From Pyxidicoccus sp. MSG2 (GTDB lineage: Bacteria; Myxococcota; Myxococcia; Myxococcales; Myxococcaceae): 64,000 nucleotides of DNA. The notes below the pieces were generated by a model, which made no database searches, had not been told where the DNA came from, and was given only the letters and a program-made list of their open reading frames with translations. The position numbers and the translations under genes are program-made. Numbering within the stretch: position 1 is the stretch's first letter; each line of letters begins with the position of its first letter. Below are positions 1 through 15,639 of this stretch, one piece after another. The stretch lies in contig NZ_JAPNKC010000001.1 in NCBI RefSeq assembly GCF_026626705.1, positions 4,898,001 through 4,962,000 on the forward strand, given 5' to 3'.

Positions 1-1688
1 AGGTCCGCCTGGTGGCGCGGCCCACGCGCGTCTACGCCAACCTCCTCTCGGAGAGCGCGCACCCGCACCACCTGCAGGATGCGATGGAGCGCGAGTGTCT
101 CTTCGACAGGCTGTGGCTGGGAGCCGCCGACGCCCCCTTCCTCCAGGCGCTGATGGGTCCAGAGAAGGAGGACCTGGAGCGCGCCGACATCCCGCGCTTC
201 TCCACCCGCGTGGGCTCGCGCACCGTCTGGGACAGCCAGGGCCGCCCGCTACCGGTGTCCCTCGGGGAGAGCGGCCTGGAGCGCGTGCGCCGCCGGCTGG
301 AGCGCGCGGACGACGCCGACCTGGAGCGGCAGCTCCACCTCATCCGCCAGGCCGTCCAGTTGGATGCACTGGCGCGGCGGCCCACGCCACGAACGCGCTC
401 GAGCGGAGTGCCCGGCGCGGCGCCCGCCAGCCGGGACGCGCTCCTGGCCGCCAGCTCGGCCGTGGCGGAGCGGCTCGCGGCGCTGTGTTTCCGGGGGCCC
501 AGGCGGGCGCGCTGGCTCGTGCCGCGCCGTCTGGAGGGACGCCACTGGACGCTCGCGGAGGCCGGGGCGGACCTCTACTTCGGACTGCCGGGCATCGCCC
601 TGTTCCTCGGCCAGCTCGGCGCGGTGGGTGGAGAGCCACGGCATCGCGCGCTCGCCGAGGCCGCCACCGTCGCCTTGCGCGACCAGCTCCGCGCCACATC
701 GGGGCGACGGACGTCCGGCGCCCTGGACAAGGTGGGCGCCTTCGACGGCTGGGGTGGCGTCCTCTACGCCTGCACGCACCTGGCGGACCTGTGGCGCGAG
801 CCGGAGCTCTGGACGCTGGCGGAGTCCGTGCTCGAGCGGCTGCCCGAGGCCATCGACGCGGATGGGCACCATGACCTCGTCAGCGGCAACGCGGGCTGTC
901 TGCTCGGCCTGCTGCGGCTCGCGGAGCAGCGCCCCACGTCCCAGGCCCTGTCCCTGGCGCGCAGGTGCGGCGAGCGGCTCCTCGCGGCGGCGCGGCCGGC
1001 GGGCGAGGGGCTCGGCTGGCTTCCACTCCGAGGCGCCTCACGCCCGCTCATGGGGCTGTCGCACGGCGCGGCGGGCATCGCCTGGGCACTGCTCGAGCTG
1101 GGCGCCGCCACGGGCGAGCCCCGCTGCTTCGAAGCCGTCAGGGGCGCACTGGCCTATGAGCGCGGAGGCTTCTCCCGTGAGCAGGGCAACTGGCCCGACC
1201 TGCGCGACGGCGCGCCCGAGGACGAGGCCGCCGAAGGAGGAGCGGCGGGCGGCGGGCATTTCCTCACGGCCTGGTGTCATGGCGCGCCCGGCATCGGCCT
1301 GTCGCGGTTGGTCATGCGCAAGCACCTGAAGGACGAGGCCCTGGAGCGCGAGCTCGACGAGGCCGTGGCCACCACGCTTCGCGCCGGCTTCGGCCTCAAC
1401 CACAGCCTGTGTCATGGCGATTTGGGCAACCTCGATTTCCTCCTGGACGCCGCGCGGGCGCGAGGTGATGAAGCGCTCAAAGCGCGGGTGTATCTCCAGG
1501 CGGCGGGAGTGCTCGACGACATCCAACGGCAGGGGTGGCTGTACGGCACGCCCGGGGGAACACAACCCCCGGGGTTGATGGTGGGCCTCGCGGGCATCGG
1601 TCATGGGCTGCTGCGGCTGGCGTCGCCGGAGGACGTGCCTTCGGTGCTGAGCCTGGGAGCTCCGGGCAGGGCCGGTTTACGCCGTTGA
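1..1688 (+). CDS. Class II lanthipeptide synthetase LanM, 3' part (partial)
   Basis: Bifunctional enzyme that dehydrates Ser/Thr in a precursor peptide and adds Cys to form lanthionine rings. The frame is already open at base 3, so the gene begins upstream of the window. The first ~115 codons (motifs RPTRVYANLL, SESAHP, DIPRFSTR) match the end of the LanM dehydratase domain. The remainder is a LanC cyclase domain with the expected zinc ligands: His in SHGAAG (codon 1062-1064), Cys in WCHGAPG (1275-1277), and the Cys-His pair in LCHGDLG (1410-1415). All ligands are present, so the cyclase should be active. The likely precursor gene starts 49 bp downstream on the same strand, so the two probably form one operon. 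Class II is assigned because dehydratase and cyclase are fused in one chain. Confidence 0.92.
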   Translation, partial: VRLVARPTRVYANLLSESAHPHHLQDAMERECLFDRLWLGAADAPFLQALMGPEKEDLERADIPRFSTRVGSRTVWDSQGRPLPVSLGESGLERVRRRLERADDADLERQLHLIRQAVQLDALARRPTPRTRSSGVPGAAPASRDALLAASSAVAERLAALCFRGPRRARWLVPRRLEGRHWTLAEAGADLYFGLPGIALFLGQLGAVGGEPRHRALAEAATVALRDQLRATSGRRTSGALDKVGAFDGWGGVLYACTHLADLWREPELWTLAESVLERLPEAIDADGHHDLVSGNAGCLLGLLRLAEQRPTSQALSLARRCGERLLAAARPAGEGLGWLPLRGASRPLMGLSHGAAGIAWALLELGAATGEPRCFEAVRGALAYERGGFSREQGNWPDLRDGAPEDEAAEGGAAGGGHFLTAWCHGAPGIGLSRLVMRKHLKDEALERELDEAVATTLRAGFGLNHSLCHGDLGNLDFLLDAARARGDEALKARVYLQAAGVLDDIQRQGWLYGTPGGTQPPGLMVGLAGIGHGLLRLASPEDVPSVLSLGAPGRAGLRR

Positions 1689-1737
1689 AGCACAACGGCT
1701 ACCATGCCCGGGCGGCACCACCTGCACGGAGGACACA

Positions 1738-1986
1738 ATGAAGGAACTCTCCAGGGAAGACATCGTTCGCGCGTGGCGTGACCCGGACGTCTACCGCTCG
1801 CTCGACGAGACGCAGCGCGCCGCGCTCCCCGCGCATCCCTCGGGCCTGGTCGAGCTCTCGGATGCCGTGCTCGACGCCGTCCACGGCGGCTACAAGGACT
1901 CCGAGGGCACCCACTACTCGTTCTGTGACCCCACGGCCGACTGGTGCGACGACTGCAAGGGTGACGTCAACGCCGCCGCTTCGTGA
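1738..1986 (+). CDS. Lanthipeptide precursor, mersacidin/lichenicidin-type leader
   Basis: An 82-aa peptide, the probable substrate of the LanM immediately upstream. The leader (residues 1-51) carries DIVRAW, ALPAHPSGLVELSD and a double-glycine end (AVHGG), as in mersacidin/lichenicidin-type leaders. Cleavage after GG51 leaves a 31-residue core with Cys at core positions 12, 19 and 22 and Ser/Thr at 4, 7, 10, 15 and 31, enough for up to three thioether rings. The core is unusually acidic (several Asp/Glu) and has no lysine-rich tail. GGAGG at 1728-1732 lies 5 nt before the ATG. The assignment is firm for a modified peptide; ring pattern and activity are unknown. Confidence 0.88.
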   Translation: MKELSREDIVRAWRDPDVYRSLDETQRAALPAHPSGLVELSDAVLDAVHGGYKDSEGTHYSFCDPTADWCDDCKGDVNAAAS

Positions 1987-2004
1987 CGTGGCGGGCGGCG
2001 GACC

Positions 2005-3198
2005 TCAGCCCCCACGCGAGGCGGCGTTGCGAGCGGCGTGAACCAGCGCGGACAGGTCCCTGACGTCCGCGCCCACGTCCGCCGCCGGAGGCCGTGCCCG
2101 GTCCGGTGAGAACAGGCGCGCGGGCGTCTGGGATTGACCGCGCAGGAGGATGAACAGGCGCAGCGCGTCCCGCAGTCGCTCCACGTCCGGGCCTTCCTCA
2201 CGACGGGCCTGCTGCGCCGCGCTCCACAGCCGCACCCACGCGGCCTCTTCGTTCCACGCTCCAGAAGGCCGCTCGCGCGCCAGCGCCGCCAGCTCCGCGG
2301 CCAGCTCGAACAGGGCCGCGCGTCCCTCACCGAAGGCCGCGCATGGCTCGAGCCGCGCGTCATGTGCGGAGCCCTCGCGAGCCGCCAGCCACACGAGCAG
2401 CTCCGGCACCTCCGCATCACCGGGCACCACCGGCGCAAGCCTCGCCTCCAGCAGCGCGCGCAGCCGGGCCCGGGCGACACCCGTCCAGAAGGCCGCGTGC
2501 AGCAACAACTCCGGCCCGCTGCGCGGCACCTGCAACGGCACGCGGGACGCGCGCTTCTCCAGGAACTCCTTCACGCGGCCGCTGGTGTCGAAGTGCTCCA
2601 GCCGCTGCCACAGCGTGGCCAGCGCCGTTTCCGCCAGGGGCAGCGCGCGCCGCAATTCATCCGCCTCGGCCGAGGTGAAGGGCAGCGGCCCTTCCGGCGC
2701 GGGGCGCTTGAAGACGCGCTCGAACACCTCGGCGGCGGCGCACGCGGCGCGCAGCTCCGGCAGGTTGCGCGGCAGCAGCTCCACGGCCCGGGCCCAGGTG
2801 CGCCGGCCCAGCAACGGGCCCGCCTCCAGCACCACCTCCTCCAGCTTCAACAGCGCCTCGCCGAGCGACTCCGGGCGCTCCTCCTCGGGCAGCCGCCGGA
2901 AGGCCGCGTGCTCCACGGCCTCGCGCAGCCGCTCCACCTCGGCCATCAGCTTCACGGGCGCGGCGTCGGCCGGCCAGCCTTCCGCGGCGGCGCGGCGTTT
3001 CAGCGCGGCGAGCGCGGCGTCCACGTCCGGCTGGGCCTGGGCCACCTCGCGGAGCAGCTCGAACTGCGCACGCACCCGGTCCTTCCAGAAGAAGGCGTCC
3101 AGCATGCCGCGCAGGGCCCGGTAACGAAGCCGCGTGGCCTCCAGGAGGTCCGCGCGGTCCTCCAGCCGAGCCCGCAGGTTGTCCGGGTGGGTGGCCAC
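2005..3198 (-). CDS. Conserved hypothetical protein, helical
   Basis: A 397-aa protein I do not recognise. It is rich in Ala, Leu, Glu and Arg with long predicted helices and no signal peptide or clear membrane segment, so it is probably cytoplasmic. The frame stays open further upstream, but the GTG at 3198 (protein begins MATHPDNLRARLEDR) follows a GAGGG motif, and the sequence upstream of it is Pro/Arg-rich and not protein-like. It converges on the lanthipeptide precursor gene (18 bp between stops) and lies downstream of dnaN on the same strand. No function is offered. Confidence 0.7.
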   Translation of the reverse strand: MATHPDNLRARLEDRADLLEATRLRYRALRGMLDAFFWKDRVRAQFELLREVAQAQPDVDAALAALKRRAAAEGWPADAAPVKLMAEVERLREAVEHAAFRRLPEEERPESLGEALLKLEEVVLEAGPLLGRRTWARAVELLPRNLPELRAACAAAEVFERVFKRPAPEGPLPFTSAEADELRRALPLAETALATLWQRLEHFDTSGRVKEFLEKRASRVPLQVPRSGPELLLHAAFWTGVARARLRALLEARLAPVVPGDAEVPELLVWLAAREGSAHDARLEPCAAFGEGRAALFELAAELAALARERPSGAWNEEAAWVRLWSAAQQARREEGPDVERLRDALRLFILLRGQSQTPARLFSPDRARPPAADVGADVRDLSALVHAARNAASRGG

Positions 3199-3406
3199 GC
3201 CCTCACTATACGAAGGCGGCTCGCGGCCGGCAGGCCCCCCCAGCCCCCGGGCCCTCACACGAGTGAACGGTGCGCGGCCTGCTTCCGTTGGCTTGGAGGC
3301 GCGACGCGAGCGGGAGGCGCCTCCGGGTACGTCCGTCGAGTTCAGGATGCGGCACGTCCACCCCGCGCGCGGTACGGCGCTCCGGGGTGGACCGCGCGGA
3401 TCCGAC

Positions 3407-4513
3407 TCAGACGCGCATGGGCATGACGACGGCGGTGAAGCTGCGGTCGCCGGGGGCGTGGAGGACGCCCGGGCTGTGCTCGTCGCCCAGCTCGAAGGAG
3501 ACCTCATCCGTCTCGGTGACGGTGAGCACGTCCATGAGGTAGCGCGCGTTGAAGCCGATGGTGATGTCGTTGCCCCGGTAGGCCAACTCCAGCACGTCCT
3601 TGGCCTCGCCCAGGTCCGGGTTGCTCGCGGTGATGACGAGCTTGTTGTCCTCCAGGCCGATGCGAACCGCGTTGCTCTTGTCCGCCGACAGCAGGGCGAT
3701 GCGCTTGAGCCCTTCGAGGAAGCGCGTCTTCGGCACGAGGACGACCTTCTCGCCCTGCTTGGGGATGACGCGCTGGTACTCGGGGAACTGGCCGTCGATG
3801 AGGCGCATCACCATGGTGAGGCCGGGCTTCTTGAACAGGGCGGAGTTCTCCGCGAAGCCCAGGTGGCACTCGGCGTCGGGGGCCTCGTCGAGCAGGCGCT
3901 TGAGCTCCATCAGGCCCTTGCGGGGGATGATGACGCCGCTCTTGAGCTTGAAGTCGCCTGGCACCTCGCGCTCGATGAGCGACAGGCGGTGGCCGTCGGT
4001 GGCCACCATGCGGACCTTGCCGTCCTCCTGGGGCTCGAAGAAGACGCCGTTGAGGATGTAGCGCGTCTCGTCGCTGGAGATGGCGAACTGGGTCTTCTTG
4101 ATCATCTCCAGGAGGGTGTTGCCGCCCACCTGCACCAGGGGCGCGTTCTCCTCCTTGGGCAGCTTGGGGTACTCCTCGGCGGCCATGCCGACAATCTTGA
4201 AGTGGGCCGAGCCACTGGAGATGTCGACGTAGTTGTTGGCCAGCTTCTTGAGGGTGACCTGGGCGTCCGGGAGGTTCTGGACGATGTCGAAGACGTACTT
4301 GGCGCTGAGGGTGACGGCGCCCGTCTTGATGACCTCGGCGGGGTGCTCGGAGACGATTCCGATGTCCAGGTCGAACGCGGTGACGGTGATGCCGCCCTTG
4401 TTCGCGGTGACGAGCACGTTGGCGAGGATGGGCATCGTCGTCTTGCGCTCGACGATTCCCTGCGCGCGGTAGAGGGCCTTCTTCAGCTCGTCGGCGGCGA
4501 TGCGGAATTCCAT
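3407..4513 (-). CDS. dnaN: DNA polymerase III subunit beta (sliding clamp)
   Basis: A 368-aa homodimeric ring that tethers replicative polymerase to DNA, of the usual family length. The N-terminus MEFRIAADELKKAL, the segment ATDGHRLS in the central domain and the C-terminal end FTAVVMPMRV are all typical, and the three clamp domains (about residues 1-120, 129-245 and 247-368) are intact. No dnaA, recF or gyrB lies beside it, so this is not the classic dnaA-dnaN-recF origin arrangement. The leader upstream of the start contains a perfect 6-bp stem (4536-4550). Confidence 0.98.
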   Translation of the reverse strand: MEFRIAADELKKALYRAQGIVERKTTMPILANVLVTANKGGITVTAFDLDIGIVSEHPAEVIKTGAVTLSAKYVFDIVQNLPDAQVTLKKLANNYVDISSGSAHFKIVGMAAEEYPKLPKEENAPLVQVGGNTLLEMIKKTQFAISSDETRYILNGVFFEPQEDGKVRMVATDGHRLSLIEREVPGDFKLKSGVIIPRKGLMELKRLLDEAPDAECHLGFAENSALFKKPGLTMVMRLIDGQFPEYQRVIPKQGEKVVLVPKTRFLEGLKRIALLSADKSNAVRIGLEDNKLVITASNPDLGEAKDVLELAYRGNDITIGFNARYLMDVLTVTETDEVSFELGDEHSPGVLHAPGDRSFTAVVMPMRV

Positions 4514-13086: not shown

Positions 13087-15639
13087 CTAACCGCCGGACG
13101 CCGTGCCCTTGACGTCGCGCGGCAGCCGCACCGTGAAGACGGTGCCCTGCTCGGAGTCCGAGTGCACGTCCACGTGCCCACCGTGCGCACGCACCACCTG
13201 GTCCACGATGTAGAGGCCCAGCCCCACGCTGCGGCGGGTGCCGTCCGTGGGGACACCGCGCTGCATGGGCCGGAAGAGGCGCGGCAGGACGTCGGCGGGG
13301 ATGGTGGCCCCCAGGTTGCGCACTTCCATCACCACCCGCTCCGCCTCGCCGCGCGTCGTCACCGTCACGGGCATATCCGCGGGGCTGTAGTCGAGCGCAT
13401 TGGAGAGCAGGTTGCCCACCACCTGCGCGATGCGGTCCGCATCCCACGTGCCCCGGCCTTCGCCCTGTTGCTCCACGCGCACGGCGCGCTCCGGGCGGGA
13501 CACCTGCACCTCGTCCACCACCTGGCGGACCAGGGCATGCAGGTCCATGGGCGCGGGCCTCACCGGAAGCCCGCCCGTCAGGCGCGCCTGGGTGAAGTCG
13601 AGCAGGTCGCGAATCATCCGCACCGCGCGCTCGGCCGAGGTCTGGATGCGCAGCGTGGTGCGCAGTTGCCTGTCGCTCAGCTCCTCTCCGCGCAGCACCG
13701 CCTGCGCTCCGAGGAGGATGGCGCTCAAGGGATTGCGCAGGTCGTGGCTGACGATGCCGATGAGCTGCTGCTCGAACTCAGCGTTCCGGCGCGCCTGCGC
13801 CTCGACCTCCTTGCGCGCGGAGATGTCCATGGCCGTGCCGAGGAAGCGCTCGGGGCGCCCGTCGGCGCCGAAGTACGCGCGCCCGCGTCCCTCCAACCAG
13901 TGCAGCGCGCCATCGAGCGTGGCGACGCGGTACTCGGCGGCGAACACACCCGCGCGCTCGCCCCGCAGCGCGGACTCCACCGCCTCACGCACCAGCTCAC
14001 GGTCCTCGGGGAGGAGGACGGCGAAGACGTCCTCGAGCGCCGGGTCGCCCACCCCCGGCATCGCGAGCAGCTCGCTCGTGAGGGCGTCCAGCCGCAGCCT
14101 CCGGGTGGACAGGTCCAGCTCCCAGGTGCCGACGCCCGACGCCTGCTCCACCATGCGGCTGCGCTCCTCGCTCCGCCGCAAGGCGTCCGCGACGGCCTCC
14201 ACCCGCCGGCGGGCGTGGACCTGCTCCGTCACCTCGAAAGCGAAGACGTCGATACCCTCCACCGCTCCCCCGGCCCCACGCCGCGCCTGGTAGTTGAAGG
14301 TCAGGAACACCTCGTCGAGGTGGCCCGTCAGCTGGCGGTCCAGCAGGATGCGCACCTCCTGCCCGACGAAGGGCCTGCCCGTGCGGTACACATCATCCAG
14401 CAACTCGACGAAGCCCTGCTCCACGACCTCCGGCAGGGCCTCGGCGACGGGGCGGCCCACCAGGGGGCGCTTGCCGGCGACCAGCTCCAGGTAGAGCGGA
14501 TTGGCCAGCTCGAAGACGTGCTCGGGGCCCCGCAGCGTGCAGATGACCGCGGGCGCCGCCTCGAGCAGGTTGTGCAGGCGTGTGCGCTCGGCTTCTGCCC
14601 GCGCGTGCGCCCGCTCCACCGCCACCAACAGCCGCTCGCGCTCGGCGCCCGCGCGGGCCCGCGCCAGCACCGCGCCCAGCTGGCCGGCGAGCAACGCGAA
14701 GAAGTCCTGCAACTCCGGTCCGAACGACAGGCGCGGGCTGCACCCCACCAGGAGCACGCCGCGCACGCCCCCGCCCGCCGGCTCGGGCAACGGCAACACG
14801 CAGGCGGTCTGGATGGGCTCGGGCCACAGGCCCGCCACGAGGCCCGGCACGCGCGCCTGCACGTCGTCCACCCACACGGGCCTGCCGGTGCGCACGGCCT
14901 CCCAGAGTGGCCACACGGAGTGGGCCTCCAGGGGCTCCACGCGCGGGGGCGTGGCGGGCGAGCGGGGCTCGAGCCCGGTGAGCCCCACCCGCCGCAGGAA
15001 GGGGCTGTCGGCCCCGCCCAGGTACACGGCGGAGAAGGGGACGTCGGCCGCGTTGCGGACGAGCACCTCCGCCGCGGCCGTGCCCACGGACTCCTCGTCG
15101 CCCGCGTCCAACGCGCTCACGGCCAGGTCCTTGAAGGTCCGCAGCCGGCGCTCGCCGAGCACCTTCTGCGTCGTCTCGGTACAGACGACCAGCACGCCTC
15201 CCACGCCGCCGCCGTCGTCGAGCACCGGGCTGTAGCTGAACGTCCAGAAGACCTCCTGGAAGCCCCCATCGCGGTGGATGGGGATGAGCTGGTCCTCGAA
15301 CCAGACGGACTCGCCTCCCTGGACGCGGCGGATGAGCGGGCCGATGACGTCCCAGATGTCCGTCCAGAACTCACGCCCGCGCGCGCCCAGGGCCTGGGGA
15401 TGGCGGTCTACGCCGAGGCTCGGCCGGTACGCGTCGTTGTAGAACTGGACCATCTCCGGCCCCCACCACAGGAACATCGGCTGGCGGCAGGTGAGCAGCG
15501 TGGAGAGCGTGATGCGCAGCGAGTGGGGCCACGTCTCCATGGAGCCCACGGGAGTCTTCGACCAGTCCAGGTCGCGGGTGAGCGAAGCGAGCTCACCTCC
15601 TCCCGGTAGCCATGTCGTGGCAGGAATCGGCACGAACAT
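13087..15639 (-). CDS. Multi-sensor histidine kinase (PAS/GAF)
   Basis: An 850-aa soluble sensor kinase. Order: PAS-like sensor (about 30-155; DWSKTPVG, FLWWGPE and FYNDAYRPSLG are typical), GAF domain (~165-330), PAS (~350-460), PAS/PAC (~480-605), HisKA with His632 in SHDLRNPL, HATPase_c with NLLSNALDYS and GLGLYIVDQV. No transmembrane helices, so signals are likely cytoplasmic (small molecules, redox or light). No receiver domain and no adjacent response regulator, so it probably feeds a separate partner. Divergent from the cobalamin-protein operon. Its kinase core is a paralogue of the one at 8229-9755. Confidence 0.92.
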   Translation of the reverse strand: MFVPIPATTWLPGGGELASLTRDLDWSKTPVGSMETWPHSLRITLSTLLTCRQPMFLWWGPEMVQFYNDAYRPSLGVDRHPQALGARGREFWTDIWDVIGPLIRRVQGGESVWFEDQLIPIHRDGGFQEVFWTFSYSPVLDDGGGVGGVLVVCTETTQKVLGERRLRTFKDLAVSALDAGDEESVGTAAAEVLVRNAADVPFSAVYLGGADSPFLRRVGLTGLEPRSPATPPRVEPLEAHSVWPLWEAVRTGRPVWVDDVQARVPGLVAGLWPEPIQTACVLPLPEPAGGGVRGVLLVGCSPRLSFGPELQDFFALLAGQLGAVLARARAGAERERLLVAVERAHARAEAERTRLHNLLEAAPAVICTLRGPEHVFELANPLYLELVAGKRPLVGRPVAEALPEVVEQGFVELLDDVYRTGRPFVGQEVRILLDRQLTGHLDEVFLTFNYQARRGAGGAVEGIDVFAFEVTEQVHARRRVEAVADALRRSEERSRMVEQASGVGTWELDLSTRRLRLDALTSELLAMPGVGDPALEDVFAVLLPEDRELVREAVESALRGERAGVFAAEYRVATLDGALHWLEGRGRAYFGADGRPERFLGTAMDISARKEVEAQARRNAEFEQQLIGIVSHDLRNPLSAILLGAQAVLRGEELSDRQLRTTLRIQTSAERAVRMIRDLLDFTQARLTGGLPVRPAPMDLHALVRQVVDEVQVSRPERAVRVEQQGEGRGTWDADRIAQVVGNLLSNALDYSPADMPVTVTTRGEAERVVMEVRNLGATIPADVLPRLFRPMQRGVPTDGTRRSVGLGLYIVDQVVRAHGGHVDVHSDSEQGTVFTVRLPRDVKGTASGG

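Follow-up and report, generated by a model that had tools for sequence, protein, structure and literature searches.

A lanthipeptide synthetase gene, lanM, and the precursor gene directly behind it, lanA, form a real class II lanthipeptide pair in which both genes are intact, and the core of the precursor is new in the sense that nothing close to it turned up in the collections searched. The pair lies at the left end of the window, which is the whole stretch of 64,000 nucleotides analysed (C1:4898001-4962000 of Pyxidicoccus sp. MSG2, whose 13.3-Mb genome, G000, is in 2 contigs). It fills an insert which begins about 1.66 kb before the window; positions outside the window are given on locus L004, where the window position equals the L004 position minus 16001. 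The features are the following:

1..2003, no strand: right-hand part of the 3661-bp insert (L004:14344-18004), absent from the sister genome G022 by alignment to the empty site in L151
1..1688 (open frame 3-1688), plus strand: C-terminal 561 codons of LanM, class II lanthipeptide synthetase (TIGR03897, DUF4135 and LANC_like)
1275..1277, plus strand: C953 in motif WCHG, presumably the first metal-ligand Cys of the cyclase, kept in LicM2
1410..1415, plus strand: C998 and H999 in motif LCHG, presumably the second Cys and the His of the cyclase metal site, kept in LicM2
1728..1732, plus strand: GGAGG, by its sequence the likely ribosome-binding site of LanA
1738..1890, plus strand: LanA leader, 51 aa with a GG end, TIGR03898 over residues 8-51 at 71.4 bits
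1891..1986, plus strand: LanA core, 31 aa and stop codon, with a predicted cut after GG
2005..3201, minus strand: right flanking gene, 398 aa, convergent with the insert, found in 27/27 genus genomes, no Pfam hit

The window coordinates cover only the last 561 codons of LanM; the start of the gene, either GTG at L004:14420 or ATG at 14444, lies some 1.6 kb to the left of the window. The C-terminal part in the window scores 483 bits against TIGR03897 in a profile search, and the whole protein, covering profile positions 4-932 of 932, reaches 884 bits (cut-off 304). A dehydratase domain (DUF4135, PF13575, 388 bits) and a LanC-like cyclase domain (LANC_like, PF05147, 240 bits) in one protein above the TIGR03897 cut-off place it in the LanM class. 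The nearest solved structures are LicM2 (346 bits) and then CylM (144 bits). Seven motifs, DSH, YKPRS, DFHxEN, DLE, RPTRVY, WCHG and LCHG, are present and align with LicM2; we take them to be the dehydratase motifs and the Cys-Cys-His metal site. The insert also contains a 15-nt inverted repeat (93%, 41 nt apart, L004:14363-14377 and 14419-14433), one arm of which precedes the GTG start of LanM while the other covers it. The repeat is possibly a control element, or possibly a ground for preferring the ATG at 14444.

The LanA reading frame (1738-1986, plus strand, 82 aa) follows LanM after 49 bp. It matches TIGR03898 with E 4.4e-20 (71.4 bits, cut-off 23.5), and with its GG-ended leader it is a precursor of the mersacidin/lichenicidin type. 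A TIGR03898 search of the genome (13.3 Mb) listed 12 matches up to E 10, of which LanA alone is over the cut-off; this is far beyond chance. The core has Cys at core positions 12, 19 and 22, Ser or Thr at 4, 7, 10, 15 and 31, and 6 Asp and 1 Glu against 2 Lys, giving a net charge of -5. The initial annotation, made from the letters of the window, described LanM followed directly by a mersacidin/lichenicidin-type precursor with an Asp-rich core of 31 aa, three Cys and five Ser/Thr; the residue counts agree, and the two profile matches and the 49-bp gap bear out the pairing. The pattern TxTxEC, the lipid II motif of mersacidin according to the excerpt of PMC7268733, is absent from the LanA core.

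The same annotation did not recognise the core, and comparison with collections has upheld that. Six peptide patterns run against one genome per species (84,980 species, a set from which very near records may be left out) gave no close relative of the core, the solved structures gave no match to LanA up to E 1, and a text search of one collection of papers with 14 letters of the core gave none either. Three distant matches to LanA are found on cyanobacterial plasmids, two of them in the leader only and the third, at 43%, also taking in 13 residues of the core. The best relative in 100 related genomes and 195 genomes of the phylum is 47% identical over residues 6-66; 20/100 of the former have a LanA match at E <= 1e-3 and 17/195 of the latter at E <= 1e-9, G000 being counted in each.

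The acidity of the core was judged against 71 distinct core entries, which were chosen by likeness to the LanA leader and are no random sample; the core of L064 is empty, and a few entries (e.g. L032, L158, L159) are cut at the wrong GG/GA. Within this set the LanA core is the most acidic, 41 cores are net negative, 17 have zero charge and 13 are net positive. Absence of a basic tail is thus common among peptides with related leaders. The cores of 94 experimentally defined lanthipeptides tend to positive charge (excerpt of PMC11251773), so the early impression that LanA stands out by lacking a basic tail holds against characterised peptides and less against its relatives, where a negative core is not unusual.

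A tree was built from 37 LanM proteins, of which L082, L064 and L080 are partial. In it our LanM is sister to eight LanMs of its own genus and family with support 100/99, on a long branch of 0.9. Its highest identity to any of the 83 others compared is 49% (L167), these being the ones matched out of 91 frames from fetched loci, some of them wrong frames. The precursor lies 53-116 bp behind LanM in 11/11 loci of the clade, which are the nine rows of the tree plus L186 and L192 (not in the tree; LanM 47% and 42% identical). The support value and the constant order make the pair a member of a myxobacterial LanM-first clade, and the gene order is a trait of that clade. Among 28 loci outside it the precursor is in front of LanM in 16 and behind in one (L086), and 10 have no leader match; L050 has another precursor 2.4 kb behind, and L085 is ambiguous with two LanM-like stretches. 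A cluster of Myxococcus xanthus listed in 2014 consists of LanM MXAN_2857, precursors 2856/2855 and LanT 2853 (excerpt of PMC3951391), and from the gene numbers we infer that it is also LanM-first. Enzyme before precursor had been put forward as an oddity of the pair; in its own clade it is the rule.

The genome has a second, distant LanM at L178:9271-12156 (G000 C1 13.139 Mb, 544 bits), which by eye is adjoined by an ABC-like gene. No TIGR03898-type leader was found near it in L006. LanMs similar to this second one occur in G011, G020, G022 and G026.

The insert is cleanly delimited. In G022, where the site is empty, 65 bp separate the two flanking alignments: the left one (96%) ends at the stop codon of a DUF1990/DUF4126 gene, and the right one (89%), with the right neighbour, begins at L004:18005; the 3661 bp of the insert hold LanM and LanA and leave no space for another gene. 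The two flanking genes are separated by 39-482 bp in 18/26 other genus genomes and by a further gene in G020; in 7/26 the left gene was not within the 0.9-1.5 kb of flank examined. A LanM match at this site was found in 0/26 of the other genus genomes, so that LanM-LanA occurs here in 1/27. Gain of the cassette in this lineage is the simplest reading, and it may instead have been lost in all other species. A repeat search over L004:14250-18100 (16 direct families, 11 inverted pairs) gave no repeats pairing the insert edges; the nearest candidate, I4, joins two coding stretches at 84% over 19 nt. Ends of a mobile element were considered and rejected, as no repeat pairs the edges and the insert has no space for an integrase or transposase beside the two genes. 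The composition of the insert is mildly unlike that of the host and no proof of foreign origin: its GC is 73.7% against 70.7% in the rest of the window, with 3.4% of host stretches equally high, and its tetranucleotide distance is matched by 5.8% of host stretches.

In G020 (L141/L152) and G002 (L126) the same site carries an ORF unrelated to the pair, about 280-290 aa long, whose N-terminus (AAAQxYEGKAC...) is signal-like, and the site beside the gene at 2005-3201 may take up different genes. The surroundings are a replication-gene neighbourhood: dnaN, for the DNA polymerase III beta clamp with three Pfam domains, is at window 3407-4513 on the minus strand, and the insert lies between it and a RecF/SMC-type gene at L004:3085-4224.

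The pair is not a complete class II cluster with an adjoining LanT. An exporter/protease and further precursors had been suggested as things to look for upstream of the window; neither the cassette nor the 14.4 kb upstream of LanM encodes a C39 exporter, and there is no second TIGR03898 precursor over the cut-off genome-wide. Four proteins of the genome exceed the C39 cut-off, three C39-ABC proteins (encoded at C1 4.88, 7.79 and 9.84 Mb) and one LysM/transglycosylase protein, none of them inside the window or L004. The C39-ABC protein L172, 15.5 kb upstream, was considered as a dedicated LanT and rejected, since G022 has it too (98.5% identity over 739 aa) among the same neighbours and has no such LanM. 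The C39-ABC exporter L171 (L183:2555-8625, G000 C1 ~9.84 Mb) is the one most like the exporters of the clade clusters (51-53% identical) and is a candidate for exporting LanA in trans. It stands beside two radical-SAM genes and, by eye, an HlyD-like gene, the locus looks like a separate radical-SAM peptide system, and L171 may serve only these neighbours; it has no match in G022 at E <= 1e-100.

Lack of an exporter is not peculiar to this pair. C39 exporters are missing in 4/7 other neighbourhoods of the clade (L175, L177, L185, L186; 18-19 kb each) and stand directly behind the precursors in 3/7 (L176, L179, L192), and G006 has one locus of each kind, L176 with exporter and L177 without. A layout without exporter thus recurs, and the pair conforms to it. 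According to the excerpt of PMC10885120, about one-third of more than 20,000 lanthipeptide clusters are without a protease and some lanthipeptides are matured by proteases outside their own cluster. Processing of LanA in trans is the likeliest course.

The model we favour, and consider probable, is that of a stand-alone class II lanthipeptide cassette in which LanM modifies LanA and a C39 exporter encoded elsewhere cleaves at the GG. LanM and LanA would be made from one transcript, as the 49-bp gap suggests, and LanM would bind the mersacidin-type leader. Ser and Thr residues of the core would then be phosphorylated and eliminated by LanM to give dehydroamino acids, to which the LanC-like domain would add the three Cys. 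The predicted result is a peptide with an acidic tail and, within core residues 4 to 22, at most three (methyl)lanthionine rings. The leader would be cut after GG by a C39-type exporter, placed elsewhere in the genome because the cassette brings none, and the peptide would be exported in trans and secreted. As to its role, our guess is a species-specific secreted peptide which acts on or signals to other cells. A bolder version, to which we give little credence, has a deeply diverged two-gene cassette that was gained in one piece at a neutral site. Its Asp-rich core, with up to three rings, would be no membrane-active antibiotic but a ligand for a divalent metal or for a partner of positive charge, and the product would be released via the C39 exporter of another system. 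Compatible with this are a core that is the most acidic of the 71, is without close relatives and has no TxTxEC, and a pair that stands without exporter where the sister genome has an empty site.

The lack of an exporter can also be taken to mean that the cassette arrived without one and is now silent or decaying, with no mature peptide made. That the insert holds neither exporter nor further gene, that the pair is present at this site in one of the 27 genus genomes, and that the core is without relatives all fit such an idle capture; both frames are however intact with a third-codon-position GC of 0.88-0.89, the catalytic motifs of LanM are kept, and exporter-less pairs recur in the clade, and we regard it as unlikely. 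The same missing exporter would suit a modified peptide which is kept inside the cell or freed by lysis and loses its leader to a general protease, and maturation by proteases outside the cluster is known for other lanthipeptides (excerpt of PMC10885120). The leader of LanA, however, ends in GG, the signature of C39 cleavage, and in L176, L179 and L192 the same type of leader goes with a C39 exporter directly behind the precursor; the chance that this explanation is right seems small. LanM might finally act mainly on another peptide in trans, LanA being a minor or lost substrate, as LanM enzymes can be promiscuous (reviewed in PMC12328550). Against this, LanA is the sole TIGR03898 precursor over the cut-off in the genome among the 12 matches listed and the adjacency of LanM and precursor is constant in the clade, which makes such a division of labour very improbable.

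The pair adds a new core to a known class; the system is not new and its biosynthesis looks ordinary. Neither its gene order nor the missing basic tail sets it apart. What distinguishes it, modestly, is the strength of its acidity, the deep branch of its LanM and the clean insertion. The lanthipeptide catalogue thereby gains one new core and one deep-branching LanM, the clean empty site presents the two genes, for LanM and precursor, as a unit that is gained complete, and the recurring exporter-less myxobacterial pairs turn borrowed GG exporters into a testable question.

Several known systems can be compared with the pair. The mersacidin/lichenicidin family, with LicM2 for the enzyme, shares the class II LanM and the TIGR03898 leader; unlike it, the LanA cassette has no TxTxEC (motif as in the excerpt of PMC7268733), no LanT, and a core of net charge -5. 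The lanthipeptide Mfu of Myxococcus fulvus is also class II and myxobacterial, with a GG leader cut by a C39-type exporter domain; it is described as pentacyclic, with a C39 exporter and an M61 protease in its cluster (excerpt of PMC10885120). Membership of LanM-LanA in the Mfu type was rejected, as LanA has three Cys only and the insert consists of two genes. The locus L193 in G017 (L193:7672-18546) resembles the published Mfu layout: besides LanM it encodes another LanC-like protein, a C39 exporter, an M61 peptidase and a precursor with a five-Cys core. There the precursor comes before LanM and its leader has no TIGR03898 match.

Closer at hand are the myxobacterial LanM-first clusters L176, L179 and L192, which are like LanM-LanA in clade or layout, with a TIGR03898 leader and the precursor directly behind LanM. 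They differ in having one to three precursors with a C39 exporter behind, their cores are of the CTPCPPxxC type with about 20 aa and 4-5 Cys, and their LanMs are 41-43% identical to ours. The M. xanthus MXAN_2857-2853 cluster (excerpt of PMC3951391) is probably one of their kind. The exporter-less pairs L175, L177, L185 and L186 share with LanM-LanA the two-gene layout, LanM in first place and the lack of a C39 exporter in 18-19 kb. They are found at other genomic places, their LanMs are 44-49% identical to ours, and their cores (DAEA..CPATPTPNELTC..., EPTSAYCTPCPPKYCY) differ from that of LanA.
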